Assembly: GCF_003312425.1 (NCBI RefSeq)
Contig: NZ_QNUX01000003.1
Location: 248,001 to 312,000, forward strand
Reading direction: 5' to 3'
DNA: 64,000 nt
Source of the DNA: Flavobacterium psychrolimnae
GTDB taxonomy: Bacteria; Bacteroidota; Bacteroidia; Flavobacteriales; Flavobacteriaceae
A model generated the notes under the pieces. The model did not search any database and was not told the DNA's origin. It saw nothing but the letters and a program-made list of their open reading frames with translations. Each line of letters begins with the position of its first letter. Position 1 is the first letter of the stretch. The translations under genes were made by a program, and so were the position numbers. Positions 22,400-30,777 of the stretch are shown here, piece after piece.

Positions 22400-23848
22400 T
22401 TATTTTTGTAAAATAACTTCTGTTCTTCTGTTTTTTGCTTTACCAGCAGCAGTTTTATTTGTTTCAACTGGACTTCCTTCACCAAAACCAACAGCATTTA
22501 AGTTTTCACCTTTAATACCTCTTTCTAACAAAGCTTCTCTAACTACGTTAGCTCTGTCTTCAGAAAGTTTTTGGTTAAATTCATCTGAACCATCGCTATC
22601 AGTATGTCCTTCAACACTGAATTTAGCATTCGGATAATTTTTAAGAATATTTGCCATAGCATCTAATCTAGCTGGAACATCACCCGCTTTGAAAGTAGCT
22701 TTACCTGAATTAAAGTAGATTGCTCTAGCTTGAATTTTAAGATTATCTAAAGCCTCAGTAGTTACTTCTGGACATCCTCTGTTACTAGCTGGACCAGCTA
22801 CAGTAGGACAATCATCATCTTTGTCTAATACTCCGTCTCCGTCAGTATCTGGCCAAGGACAACCACCATTTTCTTTAGGACCTGCAACATTAGGACATTT
22901 GTCATCTTTGTCAGCAATTCCATCTCCATCAGCATCAGGACAACCGTTTAATGCAGCTAAACCAAAAACAGTAGGACATGCATCATTTTTATCAGCAACA
23001 CCATCTCCGTCAGTATCAGGACAACCGTTTAATGCAGCTAAACCAAAATCATTTGGACACTCATCAGCACTATCTTGAATTCCATCTCCATCAGTATCAG
23101 GACAACCATTGAATTCTTTTAAACCAGCAACTTCAGGACAAGCATCATCTTTATCATAAATTCCGTCACCATCTGTATCTTTACCTCCAAATTTGAATAT
23201 AAGACCAGCAGTGTGTTGAAAAAGAGAAGGAGCATCTGGAGTAGCAAAATTTACATTCCCTTCAGTTCTGTCTCCAAAAGATTTTTTATATCTTGTTGCA
23301 AGTTCCAAACCTACATTGTCAGTAAACCAGAAAGTTAAACCAGCACCTGGATTTAAAGTACCAAAACTACTATCTCCAAAGAATGTATATCCTCCACCAA
23401 CAGATAAAGATGGATCAATAACTTTAGATTTAATTAAGTTCATGAAACTATATTTGATAGTTGCATCAACACCATAATACATTAAATCTCCAGGATTAGT
23501 AACTATGTAACCACGACTATCATGCATTACAGAAGCAGGTTCTGGAGCAAATGTTACAAATTTATTGATTTTGTTCACAGATCCAGAAAGACCGAAAGAG
23601 AAATTATCTCCTACGAATCTAGATACACTAAGGTACGATACAGAAGGCAGGATATTCCAGTTATCTTTAACAGCAAAAGGCTGAGAAAAATGACGATCAA
23701 GCCAATTATGTCCACCTTCAGCACCTGCTTTAGTGTCAACGGCATTAACTCCAAAAGAGATAGCCCAAGGATTGTTACTGTCTTGTGCGTGCGAGCTTAA
23801 ACCCATCACCATCATCACAGCAACTAAAATTTTGTTAAGATGTTTCAT
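22400..23848 (-). CDS. OmpA-family outer-membrane protein with thrombospondin type-3 repeats
   Basis: A 482-residue protein with a signal peptide ([21 protein letters not shown]). Residues about 22-220 form an N-terminal outer-membrane barrel. About five calcium-binding type-3 repeats of the form DTDGDGxxDxxDxCP follow (about 224-361). The C-terminal OmpA peptidoglycan-binding domain reads [25 protein letters not shown] and [17 protein letters not shown] to the [10 protein letters not shown] end. It probably tethers the outer membrane to peptidoglycan and is likely highly expressed, having a near-perfect promoter and a strong terminator. Confidence 0.94.
22765..23180 (-). repeat. Tandem repeat encoding thrombospondin type-3 units
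   Basis: About five imperfect copies of a unit of roughly 75-78 bp encode DTDGDGxxDKxDxCPxxxGxxxxxGCP. Copies around 22920-23050 are nearly identical, so unit number could vary between strains. Confidence 0.75.
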
Positions 23849-23960: not shown

Positions 23961-25154
23961 TTATACAACATTTAACATTTTTCCAACCTCGACAAATGCA
24001 TTAATCGCCTTGTCAATATGTGCTGTAGTGTGAGCTGCAGATAGTTGTACTCTAATTCTTGCTTTATCTTTAGGCACTACTGGAAAAAAGAATCCAATAA
24101 CATAAATACCTTTTTTTAACAGTTCATCAGCCATAGTTTGGGACAATTTTGCATCATAAAGCATAACAGGAACAATAGCTGAATCGCCATCAATGATATC
24201 AAAACCAGCTTTTTTCATTCCTGCTTTGAAATAATTAGTGTTCCATTCCAGTTTATCACGTAAAGTAGTATCCTTTTCTAATAATTCAAAAACTTTTATA
24301 GAAGCCCCGACAATAGCTGGCGCTAAAGAATTAGAAAACAAATACGGTCTGGATCTTTGACGCAATATTTCGATAATTTCTTTTTTGGCAGTCGTATAAC
24401 CTCCCATTGCACCTCCAAGTGCTTTTCCTAATGTTCCAGTAATAATGTCAACTCTTCCCATTACACCTTTTGCTTCAAGCGTCCCTTTTCCGGTTGCTCC
24501 AATAAATCCGGCAGCATGGCATTCATCAACCATAACCATCGCATCATACTTATCAGCTAAATCACAAATTTTATCCAAAGGAGCCACAACACCATCCATA
24601 GAGAAAACACCATCTGTAACAATTAATTTGAAACGAGTTCCTGCTTCAGTAGCTTTGATTAATTGTTGTTCTAAATCTTCCATATTGCTATTTTCATAAC
24701 GATAACGAGCCGCCTTACACAAACGAACACCATCTATAATAGAAGCATGATTTAAACTGTCTGAAATTATAGCATCGTTTTCTCCTAACAAAGGTTCGAA
24801 AACACCGCCGTTAGCATCAAAAGCTGCCGCGTAAAGAATGGTATCTTCAGTACTATAAAATTCAGAAATTTTTCTTTCCAATGTTTTATGAATATCCTGA
24901 GTTCCGCATATAAAACGAACTGATGACATTCCGAAACCATGGGTATCCAAAGCATCTTTAGCAGCCTGAATCACTTCTGGGTGCGATGATAATCCAAGAT
25001 AATTATTGGCACAAAAATTCAGAACAGTTTCTCCTGTAGAAATAGTGATTTCTGCTCCTTGAGGCGAAGTTATAATTCTTTCTTTTTTGAAAATTCCATT
25101 ATCTTCAATAGTTTGTAATTCTGCTTGAAGATGTTCTTTTATTTTTCCGTACAT
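23961..25154 (-). CDS. kbl: Glycine C-acetyltransferase (2-amino-3-ketobutyrate CoA ligase)
   Basis: A 397-residue PLP enzyme of the alpha-oxoamine synthase family. It cleaves 2-amino-3-ketobutyrate with CoA to glycine and acetyl-CoA in threonine breakdown. The PLP-binding lysine is Lys244 in [39 protein letters not shown] and [14 protein letters not shown] are classic blocks of Kbl, and the length (E. coli 398) and Lys number agree. It lies 48 bp downstream of the AddA-like gene on the same strand. No threonine dehydrogenase gene is in the window. Confidence 0.94.
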
Positions 25155-25202
25155 TTTTTATGTTTTTTAAAGTTCAGTTTTGCGAATTATTCACTTTTTA
25201 GG

Positions 25203-28200
25203 CTACAAATTTACTACATCGATTTCTTTTCCGATGTAAATAAGTGCTTTTTTTGTCACTTTATAACCCATTAACTCAATTGCTGTTTGATAATTTTCCA
25301 ATTGCTGTTGGTATTTCACATTATGTGTTCCTGTTTTATAATCCAGCAACAACACTTCTTTGTTTTTTGTCAAAACCATTCGGTCCGGTTTAATGGTTTT
25401 ACCTTCTTTTTGAATAATAGTTTGCTCATTCAAAACGTCATTCCCTTCGGCAAAACAAATTTCTAATTCACTGTGATTAACAATTTCCTGAATCGTTTTA
25501 AAAACTATTTCTTTTTGAGCAAAAGTTATCAATCCGTTTTCAATAGACTTTGTAATTGCCAAATCAACATCGTTTTTAGTTTTTACAAAGGACAAAATTT
25601 CATGAATAACATTCCCATATTCTATAGCTTCCTGCTGATGCGTTCCCCACATTAATGCTTCACGCTGCGCAATTTTTATATTCTTTGGATTTAGAATTTC
25701 AGAAACCAAAGGAATCGTTTTTGAAGTATCGACATGCTCTTTTCCCGCAGACAATTTTATCGAATTTCCAAATTCATATTCTAATTTATCTTCGGCAAAT
25801 TCGCCTTTATTACCCAAATAATTAATAAAAAATGAACACATATTATTCTTTGGCAATTCCCCTTTACTGGATAAATTCATATTCGAAATAACATATAATT
25901 GTTCTTCGGCTCGGGTTAAAGCCACATACAAAACATTGATATTATCCAATAATTCTTCCTGCTTTTTTTGATTGTAAACCTCAGCAGCCTCTTCACCAAA
26001 CCCTTCAACCGCACTGCTGTTATCAATCAACACTTTTGGTAAACCAAAATCTTGTTCTGTAGCATTTAGCCATAACTTATCTTTTGGCTTTCTATTGTAA
26101 TCTTCTTCAGCAAAAGGGAAAATAACAACCGGGAATTCCAATCCTTTCGATTTATGAATCGTCATAATCCGAACGGCATTAGTCCCTTCCGGAGAAGGAA
26201 TACTAAATTTCTCCGCATTTTTATCCCAGAAATTCAAGAAATCTGAAATTCCTGCTTGGTTGCGAATATCTCGCTCCAGAACAATGTCTAGGAAATATTG
26301 AACGTAGGCATTCCCCTCCCCAACCCTCCCCGAAGGGGAAGGAGCCGAAACTGGAGCAATAGAATCTAGTAAAATTTCTTGACTGACTAACTCCTTTTTT
26401 ATCTCTTTTAAAACTTCTGAAATACTCTTTACTACTTGCTCATTGGTAAATCGAATGACTTTATAGCCTAATTTATTTAAAGTAATTGTTCTATAATTAT
26501 CCAACTGAACTTGTTCTTCAGTAAAATGGTATTCACCATCTACTTCAACAACCAGTTTTTTGGACAAGCAAACAAAATCAACAATAAAATCATTTATCAA
26601 ATGTTGTTGCCTAAATTTATAATCTTCCAGTGATTTAGATTTAAGCTCCATCCAAAGAACTTTCTCAGCATGCGTGGGCTGCTTTCGCATTTCTTTTGCT
26701 TTTTCTATCAAAAGATGAGAATAATTACCACCCGTCATGTACCCTAATTTATTTGATTCAATAAGACTATTTTTATCCACACGATTAACCACTCCGTCAC
26801 CCTTTCCTTTGGAGAGGGCTGGGGTGAGGAACTTTGTTATTATTGTCTCCACCGCTTCATACAATGATTTTTTTCTAATGTTTTGAAACGAAAGTGAAAC
26901 ATCAAAACTCATCAACCACTCTTCGAAATCAGCTTCCTGAAATAATGCCATTCCTTGAGCGATAAAATCATGAATAGGTAATTTATGATGACTGTTTTGC
27001 GCTAAATATTGAAGAAAATTTGCTTTGGATTCCAGATCAGAACTGTTTTTCAAGTACTTTAATAAATGAATAATCAATCGAACTTCGGTTGCATTTTGAA
27101 TCATCAAGGTTTCTGATGACAAAAGCGGAATTCCTTGTTCTGTCAAATAATTCGCAATCGCAATTCCTTGACTTCTTTTTCGAGTCAGAATCACAATGTC
27201 TTTGTATTCAAAACCTTCTTTTAAAGTTTTTTGAATCGTATTTAAGGTTGCCAAAACATACAAATCGGTTTTATCCAAAGTTTCTTCGTCATCTTCCGAA
27301 GTTTCTACTTTTGGAATAAAAGAAATATTTACATAACCACCCGTTTTATCATTCGTTTTTTGATGACTATGATTTTCATACAAATCTTTATAATCCAAAT
27401 GCTCGAATTCATTCGATAACAATTTGAAAAAATCATTATTGAATTCGATTATCTGCGAATAAGAGCGGTAATTTTTATCTAAATGTTCAAGTCTTTTATC
27501 GGGATTATTGAACGGATTTTGGTCTTTACTCAATTCAATAAATTGTTCCGCTTTTCCGCCACGCCATCTGTAAATCGATTGTTTTGGATCGCCCACAATC
27601 ATCAAAGTTCCTTTTACTCCAAAATCATCCTGACCCGAAAGTGCATTATCAATCAGCGGAATTAGATTTTGCCATTGCATTTCTGAAGTATCCTGAAATT
27701 CATCAATAAAAAAATGACGGTAGCGTTCGCCTAATCGTTCATATATAAAAGGTGCCGGCTGATTTTGGATTTCCCGATGGATAATGGCATTGAATTCCGA
27801 GATGGAAAGTACATTTTGTTCTTCCTGAATCTTGGCCAATTCATTGCTGACGGTATTTAATAATGATAGCGGCGTAATATTTTTTAGAAAAGCTTTGTAG
27901 AAATTTATCTTTTCAAAAGCGGTATAAACTTTAGTCAGTATTTGCAAAAATTCAGGAATCAAATTCTCAATAATCGCACGGTCTTTTGCAGTTTTATTGA
28001 TTGCTATATCATCAAACTCATGAAAAGTTTTATTCTTGGGATTGAACTTTCCTTGCTGAATACTATTAATATGATTTGGAAAAGTACCCCTGGAAAAGGA
28101 TTTTACATCAATTCCGTTTTTATCAATTAAGGTCAACATTTCTTCTGCAAAAACAATAGTTTGCTTTTCTAAGTCTTTGCAGGCTTCGGAAAGTTTGGTT

Positions 28201-28949
28201 TTGATTTCGACAAACTCAGCGATAGATTTATCTTGAAAATGCGTGATTTCGTTTCTATTATTTTCGTTTAAAACCAAACGACCGGTTTCAAGAATTTCAC
28301 GCGAAATATCCCAAGATTTATCATCATCGGTTTTTTCCATCGTGAAATCGATAAGCAATTTTGTTAATGTTTCATCTTCTCCGGCTTGCGCGATGATGGC
28401 ATCGACGGCTTCTACCAACAAATTTTCAGTATCCAAAGTGACTTCAAAAGTCATAGGTAAATTCAAATCGTGTGCAAAAGCACGAATAACTTTATGTGTG
28501 AATTTATCAATTGTAGAAATATCAAAAGCAGCATAATTATGAATAATATGCTTGATGATTTGCTGTGATTTAGTTTTGATTTGGATAATCGAAAGTCCTA
28601 TTGGTTCTTCGCTCCATTCTTCAGGATTATTTTCATTTCGTTTTCCGTTCACCAAATCCTGCATTAAATCCTGCGCTTTTGCACTTGGTTCATCCTTGGC
28701 AAATTCGGACAAACTGCCTACGATTCGGGATTTCATTTCGTGTACCGCCTTATTAGTAAACGTAATGGCGAGAATATTGCGGTAGGCATCATTTTTTGGC
28801 GCGACAAGTATAATTTTGAGGTATTCTTTGACAAGCGCATAGGTTTTTCCGGAGCCGGCGGATGCGTCGTATATGGAGAATGAAGGTCTCCCCTCCATAA
28901 CATTCCCCGAAGGAGAGGAAGCCGAAACTGGATTTATTTTATGTTCCAA
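25203..28949 (-). CDS. AddA/RecB-like UvrD-family helicase-nuclease with an inserted DUF559 domain
   Basis: A 1248-residue protein. The helicase motifs are complete: Walker A DASAGSGKT (about 28-36), FTNKAVHEMKSRI, Walker B FIDEFQDTSEMQWQ, VGDPKQSIYRWRGG, MTIHKSKGLEFPVVIFPF and VALTRAEEQLYVI. The C-terminal RecB-type nuclease core is DRMVLTKNKEVLLLDYKTG. It probably works with the AddB-like protein on DNA ends. Residues about 707-880 are foreign: a DUF559 endonuclease domain bounded by repeat-encoded peptides (LTPALSKGKG and PVSAPSPSGRVGEG). The N-terminus also carries repeat-encoded PVSASSPSGNVMEG. The start is either TTG at 28949 or the ATG at 28898, which lies within the repeat; a TAA in frame closes the frame upstream. 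Confidence 0.88.
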   Translation of the reverse strand: MEHKINPVSASSPSGNVMEGRPSFSIYDASAGSGKTYALVKEYLKIILVAPKNDAYRNILAITFTNKAVHEMKSRIVGSLSEFAKDEPSAKAQDLMQDLVNGKRNENNPEEWSEEPIGLSIIQIKTKSQQIIKHIIHNYAAFDISTIDKFTHKVIRAFAHDLNLPMTFEVTLDTENLLVEAVDAIIAQAGEDETLTKLLIDFTMEKTDDDKSWDISREILETGRLVLNENNRNEITHFQDKSIAEFVEIKTKLSEACKDLEKQTIVFAEEMLTLIDKNGIDVKSFSRGTFPNHINSIQQGKFNPKNKTFHEFDDIAINKTAKDRAIIENLIPEFLQILTKVYTAFEKINFYKAFLKNITPLSLLNTVSNELAKIQEEQNVLSISEFNAIIHREIQNQPAPFIYERLGERYRHFFIDEFQDTSEMQWQNLIPLIDNALSGQDDFGVKGTLMIVGDPKQSIYRWRGGKAEQFIELSKDQNPFNNPDKRLEHLDKNYRSYSQIIEFNNDFFKLLSNEFEHLDYKDLYENHSHQKTNDKTGGYVNISFIPKVETSEDDEETLDKTDLYVLATLNTIQKTLKEGFEYKDIVILTRKRSQGIAIANYLTEQGIPLLSSETLMIQNATEVRLIIHLLKYLKNSSDLESKANFLQYLAQNSHHKLPIHDFIAQGMALFQEADFEEWLMSFDVSLSFQNIRKKSLYEAVETIITKFLTPALSKGKGDGVVNRVDKNSLIESNKLGYMTGGNYSHLLIEKAKEMRKQPTHAEKVLWMELKSKSLEDYKFRQQHLINDFIVDFVCLSKKLVVEVDGEYHFTEEQVQLDNYRTITLNKLGYKVIRFTNEQVVKSISEVLKEIKKELVSQEILLDSIAPVSAPSPSGRVGEGNAYVQYFLDIVLERDIRNQAGISDFLNFWDKNAEKFSIPSPEGTNAVRIMTIHKSKGLEFPVVIFPFAEEDYNRKPKDKLWLNATEQDFGLPKVLIDNSSAVEGFGEEAAEVYNQKKQEELLDNINVLYVALTRAEEQLYVISNMNLSSKGELPKNNMCSFFINYLGNKGEFAEDKLEYEFGNSIKLSAGKEHVDTSKTIPLVSEILNPKNIKIAQREALMWGTHQQEAIEYGNVIHEILSFVKTKNDVDLAITKSIENGLITFAQKEIVFKTIQEIVNHSELEICFAEGNDVLNEQTIIQKEGKTIKPDRMVLTKNKEVLLLDYKTGTHNVKYQQQLENYQTAIELMGYKVTKKALIYIGKEIDVVNL
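26311..26344 (+). repeat. Left terminal inverted repeat of the DUF559 cassette
   Basis: The 34 bases starting TTCCCCTCCCCAACCCTCCC match the reverse complement of 26798-26831 at about 25 positions. The inner part contains the hairpin CCCCGAAGGGG. Confidence 0.75.
26798..26831 (-). repeat. Right terminal inverted repeat of the DUF559 cassette
   Basis: Read on the minus strand it begins TTCCTCACCCCAGCCCTCTC and continues CAAAGGAAAGGG, parallel to the left end. In the host protein it encodes FLTPALSKGKG. Confidence 0.75.
28889..28932 (-). repeat. Solo copy of a DUF559-cassette end at the 5' end of the AddA-like gene
   Basis: This stretch aligns with 26312-26355 over its whole length, including identical CCCCGAAGG and GCCGAAACTGGA blocks, in the same orientation. 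In protein it gives PVSASSPSGNVMEG against PVSAPSPSGRVGEG inside the gene. It contains the ATG at 28898-28896. Confidence 0.75.
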
Positions 28950-29013
28950 ATTGATGTTATTTATAAATTATGATTTCTGATTTAGAATTAGCGTTCTAAT
29001 TTCCCAAATCCCT

Positions 29014-29100
29014 AGCCCTGATGGTAGCGGCATCCTTTCCTGCCGTCCCGAAGCTTCGGGATGGCAGGAAAGATATAGTGTACAGCAGGAAATAGCTTCT
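29014..29100 (+). repeat. Intergenic hairpin repeat, subfamily 2 (copy A)
   Basis: The flanks AGCCCTGATGGTAGCGGCAT and ACAGCAGGAAATAGCTTCT surround a nearly perfect loopless hairpin at 29035-29072 (CTTTCCTGCC ... GGCAGGAAAG with a CCCGAAGCTTCGGG centre). The same flanks occur at 43638-43742 around a different hairpin. Confidence 0.75.
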
Positions 29101-29123
29101 AAAAATACACGTATTAATAGGTT

Positions 29124-29167
29124 ACTTTTAAAATTTGCCCCGAAACTTCGGGATAAAACTTAAAAGT
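29124..29167 (+). promoter_or_regulatory. Hairpin upstream of rbfA
   Basis: ACTTTTA (29124-29130) and TAAAAGT (29161-29167) are outer arms around CCCGAA...TTCGGG (29139-29152). The structure ends 2 bp before the -7 box of rbfA, so it overlaps the promoter at DNA level. Confidence 0.5.
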
Positions 29168-29169
29168 AG

Positions 29170-29177
29170 TATTTTTG
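29170..29177 (+). promoter_or_regulatory. -7 promoter box of rbfA
   Basis: TATTTTTG is a perfect match ending 4 bp before the ATG at 29182, so an mRNA with almost no leader is predicted. Confidence 0.5.
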
Positions 29178-29181
29178 CAGC

Positions 29182-29574
29182 ATGGAAACAAATAGACAGA
29201 AAAAAATAGGTGGGGTTATCCAAAAAGATTTGGTTGATATTCTGCAAGGTGAAGTGAGAAAAAACGGACTGGCTAATTTAATCATTTCGGTATCCAAGGT
29301 TACTGTGACTACAGATTTATCAGTAGCGACGGTACATTTAAGTGTTTTTCCTCAGGAAAAAGCAAAAGAGATTTTAGAGGCGGTTAAGTCCAATGCTAAA
29401 AATATTAAGCATGATTTATCACAACGTGTTCGTTTGCAATTGAGAAAAGTTCCAAATTTGGTTTTCTTTATTGATGACTCTTTAGATTACATTGAAAAAA
29501 TTGACAATGCGCTAGCCAATAGAGATAATCCTATTGAAAACAGAGATCTTTTGGACAAACGCAGATTTCAATAA
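29182..29574 (+). CDS. rbfA: 30S ribosome-binding factor A
   Basis: A 130-residue KH-like protein that helps 16S rRNA processing and 30S maturation, especially in the cold. The start METNRQKKIGGVIQKDLVDI and the block VTVTTDLSVATVHLSVFP (about 43-60) fit RbfA, as does the downstream VRLQLRKVPNLVFFIDDSLDY (about 90-110). Length is normal. The gene is followed after 3 bp by the permease gene, an arrangement common in Flavobacteriia. Confidence 0.93.
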   Translation: METNRQKKIGGVIQKDLVDILQGEVRKNGLANLIISVSKVTVTTDLSVATVHLSVFPQEKAKEILEAVKSNAKNIKHDLSQRVRLQLRKVPNLVFFIDDSLDYIEKIDNALANRDNPIENRDLLDKRRFQ

Positions 29575-29577
29575 AAT

Positions 29578-30777
29578 TTGAATTTCCCCCTTTACATAGC
29601 CAAACGCTACATTCTTAGCAATAGTAAAAATAATGCTATAAACATCATCAATCGTATTGCCAGTTTGGGAATTATTGTTGGTGCTATGGCTTTGTTTGTG
29701 GTTTTGTCCGTTTTTAGCGGGTTGAAGGTTTTTAGTCTTTCATTTACTAATGACATTGATCCCGATTTAAAAATAAGCAGCACTTTAGGAAAATCCTTTT
29801 TGATTTCCCCAAGTCAGGAAAGCCAAATCAAGAAAATTGACGGCTTGGTTTCGTATACTAAAATTATTGAAGAGCGAGTTTTATTCACTTTTAATGGAAA
29901 GCAAGAAGTTACTTACCTGAAAGGTGTTGATGCTAATTTCAGCAAAGTTAATGCTATCGAGAAAAAACTTTTCAACGGGCAGTGGCTGAAACCGGATACG
30001 TATCAAGTAGTGGTAGGTTATGGAATTTCTCAAAAATTCTCGATGGGATTATTGGATTTTAATAATCAGTTGGAAGTTTTGGTTCCAAAGCCAGGAAAAG
30101 GCGCTATTGAAAATCCAGAACAAGCTTTTAATAAAACAGATGTAATTCCTGTTGGGATTTACGCTATTAGCGACGACCTTGATTCAAAATATGTTTTTGC
30201 CGATTTAGGTTTGGCCCAAGAATTACTGGAATACAAAACCAATCAGGTTTCCGGGATTGAAATCAAGACGAAAACGGATGCTGATGAAAGTGCCATTACA
30301 GAGCAGCTTCAAACCATTTTCGACAATAAAATCACCGTAAAAAACAGGGCGCAACTCAACGAATCGCTCTATAAAATGTTGAATACGGAGAATATTGCGG
30401 TTTATTTAATCTTTACTTTGGTGATTGTCGTGGCGCTATTCAACTTGATTGGCGCGTTAATTATGATGATTTTAGACAAAAAAGGAAACCTAAAAACCCT
30501 TTTTAATCTTGGAACTGAAATCAAGGATTTACGAAAAATATTCCTGCTTCAAGGCACTTTATTGAGTGTTTTTGGCGGAATTATTGGCTTGGCTCTAGGA
30601 ATTATAATCGTATTGTTACAAGAATATTTTCAGTTAGTTATGATTACTCCTACACTGGCTTATCCTGTGATTTTCTCTCTCGAAAATGTTCTTATTGTTA
30701 TGGGAACTATAGTCACGCTTGGCTTTGTTGCTTCCTTAATTGCAAGTAGCCGCGTGAGCAAGAAGTTGCTTGAATAA
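29578..30777 (+). CDS. FtsX/LolC-E-type ABC permease (TTG start)
   Basis: A 399-residue membrane protein of the lipoprotein-releasing permease family. It has one N-terminal span (about 22-44, IASLGIIVGAMALFVVLSVF), a large periplasmic domain (about 45-270) and three C-terminal spans (about 272-295, 322-345 and 362-387). A LolCDE-like complex extracts lipoproteins from the inner membrane. The ATPase partner is not adjacent. The start is TTG at 29578, 3 bp after the rbfA stop; the in-frame TAA of rbfA excludes an upstream start. Co-transcribed with rbfA. Confidence 0.88.
   Translation: MNFPLYIAKRYILSNSKNNAINIINRIASLGIIVGAMALFVVLSVFSGLKVFSLSFTNDIDPDLKISSTLGKSFLISPSQESQIKKIDGLVSYTKIIEERVLFTFNGKQEVTYLKGVDANFSKVNAIEKKLFNGQWLKPDTYQVVVGYGISQKFSMGLLDFNNQLEVLVPKPGKGAIENPEQAFNKTDVIPVGIYAISDDLDSKYVFADLGLAQELLEYKTNQVSGIEIKTKTDADESAITEQLQTIFDNKITVKNRAQLNESLYKMLNTENIAVYLIFTLVIVVALFNLIGALIMMILDKKGNLKTLFNLGTEIKDLRKIFLLQGTLLSVFGGIIGLALGIIIVLLQEYFQLVMITPTLAYPVIFSLENVLIVMGTIVTLGFVASLIASSRVSKKLLE

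Follow-up and report, generated by a model that had tools for sequence, protein, structure and literature searches.

In the genus Flavobacterium, a family of genetic elements consists of one reading frame for a Vsr-like DUF559 endonuclease placed between two inverted, hairpin-forming, G+C-rich (REP-like) ends. We show here that, within the genus, host genes of at least five kinds harbour these elements in frame, and that empty, solo-repeat and internally deleted alleles occur at the same sites. On the best reading, to which we give a probability of about 0.6, these are homing-like elements with REP-like ends that undergo no splicing and that proteins tolerate in their variable stretches. Both cleavage and movement are inferences, neither having been observed for any copy.

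The window, a stretch of 64,000 nucleotides from Flavobacterium psychrolimnae, carries one such element within a helicase-nuclease gene, with the following features.

25203-28949, minus strand: host gene for an AddA/RecB-like UvrD-family helicase-nuclease, 1248 residues with the insert, no stop.
26313-26826, minus strand: insert of 514 bp replacing about 16 bp of the empty allele, delimited by DNA comparison with the empty alleles L061-L064.
26798-26831, minus strand: 5'-side end repeat (in the coding direction), overlapping 5 host bases and encoding approximately LTPALSKGKG.
26311-26344, minus strand: 3'-side end repeat (in the coding direction), encoding approximately PSPSGRVGEG.
26388-26705, minus strand: DUF559 (PF04480) nuclease domain, residues 749-854, with the conserved acidic positions present and a matching fold.
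26736-26738, minus strand: internal in-frame ATG, residue 738.
About 28890-28932, minus strand: solo repeat copy without nuclease at the 5' end of the AddA-like gene, with the peptide NPVSASSPSGNVMEG, read directly from the sequence.

Pfam analysis of the host protein reports the UvrD-helicase and UvrD_C domains together with DUF559 (E 1.8e-33), and RecB-like helicase models of NCBIfam match it with E-values down to 2e-94, under their curated cut-offs. The closest named match of the gene is from Flavobacterium petrolei (97%). As compared with the empty orthologues L061-L064, the insert brings a net gain of 166 codons and keeps the frame. The first-pass annotation had described a DUF559 cassette with inverted ends lying in frame in an AddA/RecB-like helicase, and this description holds, down to the absence of any stop codon. 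Its suggestion that the internal ATG could yield a separate nuclease fares less well: the codon is present, but the methionine is not invariant even among the inserts of the AddA site (it is a leucine in L054) and is missing in most of the inspected rows of other sites. A structural model of the full-length host protein is poor (pTM 0.27) and shows only DUF559 as a unit of its own between low-confidence linkers. Elsewhere in the window, a Flavo-1 RNA (RF01705, 66.5 bits, above the gathering score) lies just upstream of the AddA-like gene (29010-29096, plus strand), and positions 22400-23848 (minus strand) encode an OmpA-like protein with many DTDGDGVxDxxDxCP repeats of calcium-binding type.

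When one arm of the insert is inverted onto the other, 25 of 34 positions agree, while the runner-up among 25 register shifts gives 19; each end is a G+C-rich hairpin in its own right. Taken alone, the end pair of the window is only mildly unusual and within chance reach (local score 13.5, equalled by 9/380 control placements); the strength of the case lies in the family of elements. The core of the 3'-side repeat has 14 further copies in the same genome at no more than 3 mismatches (none for a reversed-pattern control), and three inverted pairs of the core are found there, 71-122 nt apart. The insert is the sole DUF559 match of this genome.

The fold predicted for the DUF559 domain (mean pLDDT of 81) most resembles 3hrl, a DUF559 protein (Z 15.0), followed by the homing endonuclease I-Bth0305I (Z 12.1) and Vsr (Z 10.1). 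The resemblance to I-Bth0305I extends to the sequence, with a phmmer hit of E 0.0013 to 3r3p. I-Bth0305I is thus the nearest named functional relative, while the closest match overall is an uncharacterised DUF559 protein. The conserved D/E/D residues are present in 116/118 domains, the exceptions being L174 and L184, both of which have low end scores, as have many intact domains; a Vsr/DUF559 nuclease fold with its conserved acidic residues is therefore assigned. In-frame residence in conserved genes recalls inteins, and one could suppose that the product loses the insert, through intein or intron splicing or through a bypass. We regard such removal as very improbable: Pfam reports neither an intein nor a Hint domain for the window protein or for 17 scanned proteins of the phylum, Rfam lists no intron family for positions 24000-30000 at E-values up to 1, and removal at the RNA level would need no open frame.

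Across the genus, PF04480 matches in 80/150 genomes. The analysis was restricted to the 101 distinct DUF559 places of these 150 genomes with E 1e-21 or better, weaker matches being excluded, and host frames were assigned by blastp clusters and alignments. Long host frames contain 59 of the 101 places: AddA-like (11), LeuS (16), MetH (21), RecG (8) and type ISP (3), with two insertion sites each in LeuS and MetH. The other 42 lie in short frames (250 residues at most), a criterion of length that does not imply an intergenic position; the strongest of these copies are about 440-900 bp long. Two inserts occur within one gene in the MetH of G131 and G138 and in the LeuS of G016. In the single-contig genome G112 (L126), MetH is split at its second insert into frames of 715 and 355 residues, a case of failed in-frame residence. 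About 40 weak PF04480 matches (E 5e-9 to 6e-4) are also found in the genus, most spanning only family positions 66-108 in frames of about 150 residues; they may represent a related short protein or another family.

Inverted ends accompany many of these places, as a search for the same ends beside other DUF559 genes, proposed by the first-pass annotation, has revealed for other host genes as well as for short frames. End scores of at least 18.5 are reached at 42/100 scorable places and by none of 380 control placements, shifted within the same loci; at a threshold of 15 the figures are 54/100 and 4/380. At this lower threshold ends are found at 31/42 short-frame places, 10/15 and 1/1 places of the two LeuS sites, 4/14 and 2/6 of the two MetH sites, 4/11 AddA and 2/3 type ISP places, and at none of the eight RecG inserts, whose nucleases are nonetheless intact. 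No consistent target-site duplication flanks the 24 strongest short-frame elements, so that this hallmark of DDE insertion sequences and MITEs is not met. Arms open in all six frames amount to 18/84, as compared with 22% of shuffled arms and 3% of random pieces from the same loci. A selection of the ends for openness in all frames is rejected, as shuffled arms equal them, and this openness is a consequence of the G+C-rich composition.

Local conservation is below the mean at all six insertion sites, which are hence variable stretches. Inteins usually choose conserved sites; insertion at conserved motifs in their manner was considered and rejected for the present elements, as conserved blocks lie no closer to the six sites than to other positions.

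Alleles without the full element are abundant. The AddA-like site was compared in 79 loci and the window, and 18 of these 80 alleles are filled, the rest being empty, repeat remnants or, in L098, N. Isolates of F. petrolei and F. caseinilyticum have a filled AddA-like gene, and that of F. johnsoniae strain CI04 (L119) is empty. The close relatives L061-L064 have an intact FLNPK/S..SNAY stretch where filled alleles bear the insert. One in-frame hairpin repeat stands alone at this site in L081 and half of one in L084, short repeat remnants are found in L065, L066 and L121, and nine further alleles resemble worn remnants by eye. At MetH site 2, L021 and L036 have repeat pairs without a nuclease and L038 an internally deleted insert. 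Empty alleles are present at the LeuS, MetH and RecG sites as well. A misassembly or sequencing artefact, for which one could point to the 23-contig draft of the window's genome, can practically be set aside, since filled AddA alleles occur across many species and in one- or two-contig assemblies (G036 and G139), and filled LeuS in G112 and G139. Among the matches listed, G147 alone of the 15 genomes that carry a filled LeuS has a second full gene for it, so the filled gene is probably the working copy. As a separate observation, some empty alleles contain unrelated palindromic or tandem repeats in frame (L214 at LeuS site 1, L277 and L284 at MetH site 2, and L208, L223, L278 and L282), and such stretches look as if they were hot spots for any repeat.

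The distribution of filled and empty alleles was compared with host trees. At the AddA site, 12 changes between the filled and empty states are counted on a host tree of 79 rows, 9 of them forced by well-supported branches, the mean for shuffled states being about 15.5; the tree was built without the insertion site and without L057 (for which a different frame was picked), and L098 and the repeat-remnant alleles were scored as empty. The sister pairs L049/L064 and L087/L083 differ in state. LeuS exhibits 7 changes over 44 rows (L206 left out) and MetH site 1 exhibits 10 over 43 (L019, L030, L126, L143, L266, L274 and L284 omitted); the empty alleles in these two trees are the best 30 loci of each search, which is not a random draw. 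In the nuclease tree, from which L205 was omitted and L019 dropped as a duplicate of L125, the 28 AddA-site inserts are all united in a single clade (98/96), and the 8 RecG-site inserts all belong to a second one (100/99). The MetH site-1 inserts L017 and L018 group with site-2 inserts (99/87), a placement that is, to judge by the tree, a switch between the two MetH sites. LeuS site-1 inserts fall into at least two groups, one of which adjoins the AddA clade, without strong support. Site-specific presence and absence together with site-loyal nuclease lineages, a criterion of homing genes, are thus met at the AddA and RecG sites. The empty alleles nested among filled ones retain the target letters that the insert replaces, and are therefore not simple excision products or scars. 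Repeated replacement of alleles through recombination is the simplest reading of this pattern, the nuclease as its driver being an inferred step.

Direct signs of horizontal spread were sought in two further ways. The tree of the AddA inserts and that of their hosts mostly agree where they are resolved; the one named conflict (Q, L047 and L069) is rejected on the insert data (p 0.012) and hardly better placed on the host data (p 0.0625), and tree conflict gives only weak support to such spread. Inserts exceed every host window in identity in 20/276 pairs. Ordinary host windows do so in up to 24/253, so that this excess is not used and horizontal spread on identity alone is rejected.

The agreement of the AddA trees would also fit DUF559 being an old accessory domain with a host function, inherited vertically and often lost, whose G+C-rich flanks are linkers that gained REP-like repeats. 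Selection can be read the same way: median dN/dS by site is 0.13-0.35 (4-20 pairs each). All tested sites have low values, the smallest being that of RecG (0.13, 7 pairs), where the inserts have no scorable ends, and by this codon-based measure we find the nuclease here to be under purifying selection. Several of the hosts act on DNA. However, the hosts also include LeuS, MetH and a methylmalonyl-CoA mutase, the majority of orthologues lack the insert, 7-12 changes of state are counted, short-frame copies have strong ends and the ends follow the nuclease clade, all of which makes an old host domain improbable. The selfish element proposed at first pass would have been refuted if every AddA-like orthologue had carried the segment or if such ends had been absent from other DUF559 genes; neither is the case, and that proposal gains support, its mobility remaining an inference without any observed movement.

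Nuclease and ends diverge together. For the 53 elements with an end score of at least 16 (L205 again excluded), nuclease identity correlates with end similarity at a Mantel r of 0.852, none of 2000 permutations reaching this value, and at 0.824 for pairs below 70% identity. This joint divergence bears on whether DUF559 might be a mere passenger between two copies of ordinary REP-type repeats moved by a RAYT, an IS or recombination. Filled genomes do commonly contain REP-like copies that lack DUF559, in some cases arranged as inverted pairs with a spacing of 71-122 nt, Y1_Tnp proteins are found in 108/150 genomes of the genus, and the unrelated repeats in empty alleles at LeuS site 1 and MetH site 2 point the same way. 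Against this stand the divergence of the ends with the nuclease, the genome G029, where the repeat core occurs 12 times without any Y1_Tnp match, and the window's own genome, whose only Y1_Tnp match has an E-value of 5.7e-4. Moreover, copies of the repeat core outside the element are found in 10/11 AddA-filled genomes versus 20/139 others (Fisher 2.5e-7, not corrected for relatedness). We consider a passenger role unlikely, though not negligible. Pfam reports no Y1 domain in the window protein, so that the REP/RAYT criterion of an associated HUH (Y1) transposase is not met by the element; a RAYT as mover is not excluded in general, but G029 is without a Y1_Tnp match.

Beyond the genus, DUF559 matches in 138/247 Bacteroidota genomes. 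Ends scoring at least 18.5 flank 18/57 examined places versus 1/237 controls; many of the 57 places were picked for their long frames, and 11 loci were scored with longer flanks only. Hosts in this phylum comprise LeuS, MetH, RecG, an AddA/RecB-like protein, a methylmalonyl-CoA mutase fusion, a GATase_5 protein, N-formylglutamate amidohydrolase, HsdR, HsdM, type ISP and Eco57I-like enzymes, a DNA methylase and an M23 peptidase. On plasmids, ten stretches were inspected from 40 records with a match: in three, the ends score above all 40 controls (maximum 18.0), with 63 in Pseudanabaena, 45.5 in Deinococcus psychrotolerans and 26 in Sphingomonas parapaucimobilis, and in the remaining seven they do not. 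The Sphingomonas copy is a hairpin-ended DUF559 gene between sufB and sufC (L371, 2465-2875), and that of Deinococcus lies between paaD and paaZ (L373, 2474-2827); among the matches listed, related plasmids have sufB-sufC or paaD-paaZ without the DUF559 gene. Similar elements hence occur across Bacteroidota, and hairpin-ended short-frame copies in three other phyla. Whether they all form an undescribed class of autonomous mobile elements, in which a Vsr-like DUF559 recognises the REP-like hairpins at its own ends, movement requires no transposase, intron or intein, solo and paired repeats are non-autonomous progeny, and the element persists in essential genes as a permanently translated domain, is a tentative proposal for which we claim somewhat less than even odds.

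The homing-like reading can be put as a sequence of inferred steps. The nuclease would be made within the host protein, or alone from short-frame copies, and may cut either the matching empty allele or the hairpin ends. Host recombination would then repair the break from the filled copy, so that the element would spread by allelic conversion (homing), and occasionally it may reach a new site. The ends would be translated as flexible Pro/Ser/Gly linkers and the host protein would tolerate the insert without splicing; being G+C-rich with few stop codons, and yielding such linkers, they would make insertion in a variable stretch tolerable. Decay would leave solo repeats and nuclease-free remnants. 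Several results count against this reading: the broad agreement of insert and host trees at the AddA site, identities that do not exceed those of ordinary host windows, RecG inserts with intact nucleases but without scorable ends, sites no closer to conserved blocks than chance positions, and the broken MetH frame of G112.

To our knowledge, selfish nucleases have been thought to need an intron or an intein inside genes that cells cannot lose. The present nuclease appears to live unspliced in LeuS, MetH, RecG and an AddA-like helicase, where it preserves the reading frame and its repeat ends serve as linkers. Should this be true, it would suggest one way in which palindromic elements that reside in frame, like those of Rickettsia, could have spread in the first place, would give a role to DUF559, a widespread domain of unknown function, and would link some REP-like repeats with a nuclease that is not a RAYT. 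It would also caution against taking every such domain of a housekeeping protein for a host function, since some can be parasites. Since filled, empty, solo and decayed alleles stand side by side in the genus, homing without splicing is directly testable.

In the open-licence literature, as far as titles and the openings of abstracts go, no work was found that treats DUF559 as mobile or as an in-frame guest of housekeeping genes. Free-standing DUF559 proteins (3hrl; NCBIfam PRK09767) belong to the same domain family and are annotated as of unknown function. With REP/REPIN sequences and their RAYT (the REPtron), the elements share short G+C-rich hairpin repeats, single or in inverted pairs, and a flanked gene that diverges with the copies, but this gene encodes a PD-(D/E)XK-type DUF559 nuclease and not an HUH tyrosine transposase; REP families and RAYTs are covered in PMC3733652. 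The palindromic elements of Rickettsia lie in frame inside genes, are about 150 bp long and have a short conserved peptide frame, as described in PMC10969869. The likeness to them drawn at first pass is fair as to the outcome: in both cases hosts tolerate a palindromic element that keeps the frame of genes unrelated to one another and whose repeats encode peptides. The full element described here carries in addition a nuclease and inverted hairpin ends, and has empty, solo and deleted alleles at its sites. Lastly, the homing endonucleases of the EDxHD family (I-Bth0305I) share with it the nuclease fold and sequence similarity, the sporadic pattern of filled and empty alleles and the site-loyal clades, whereas the present element is without intron or intein, keeps its nuclease in the host frame between inverted hairpin ends, and occupies sites in variable stretches.
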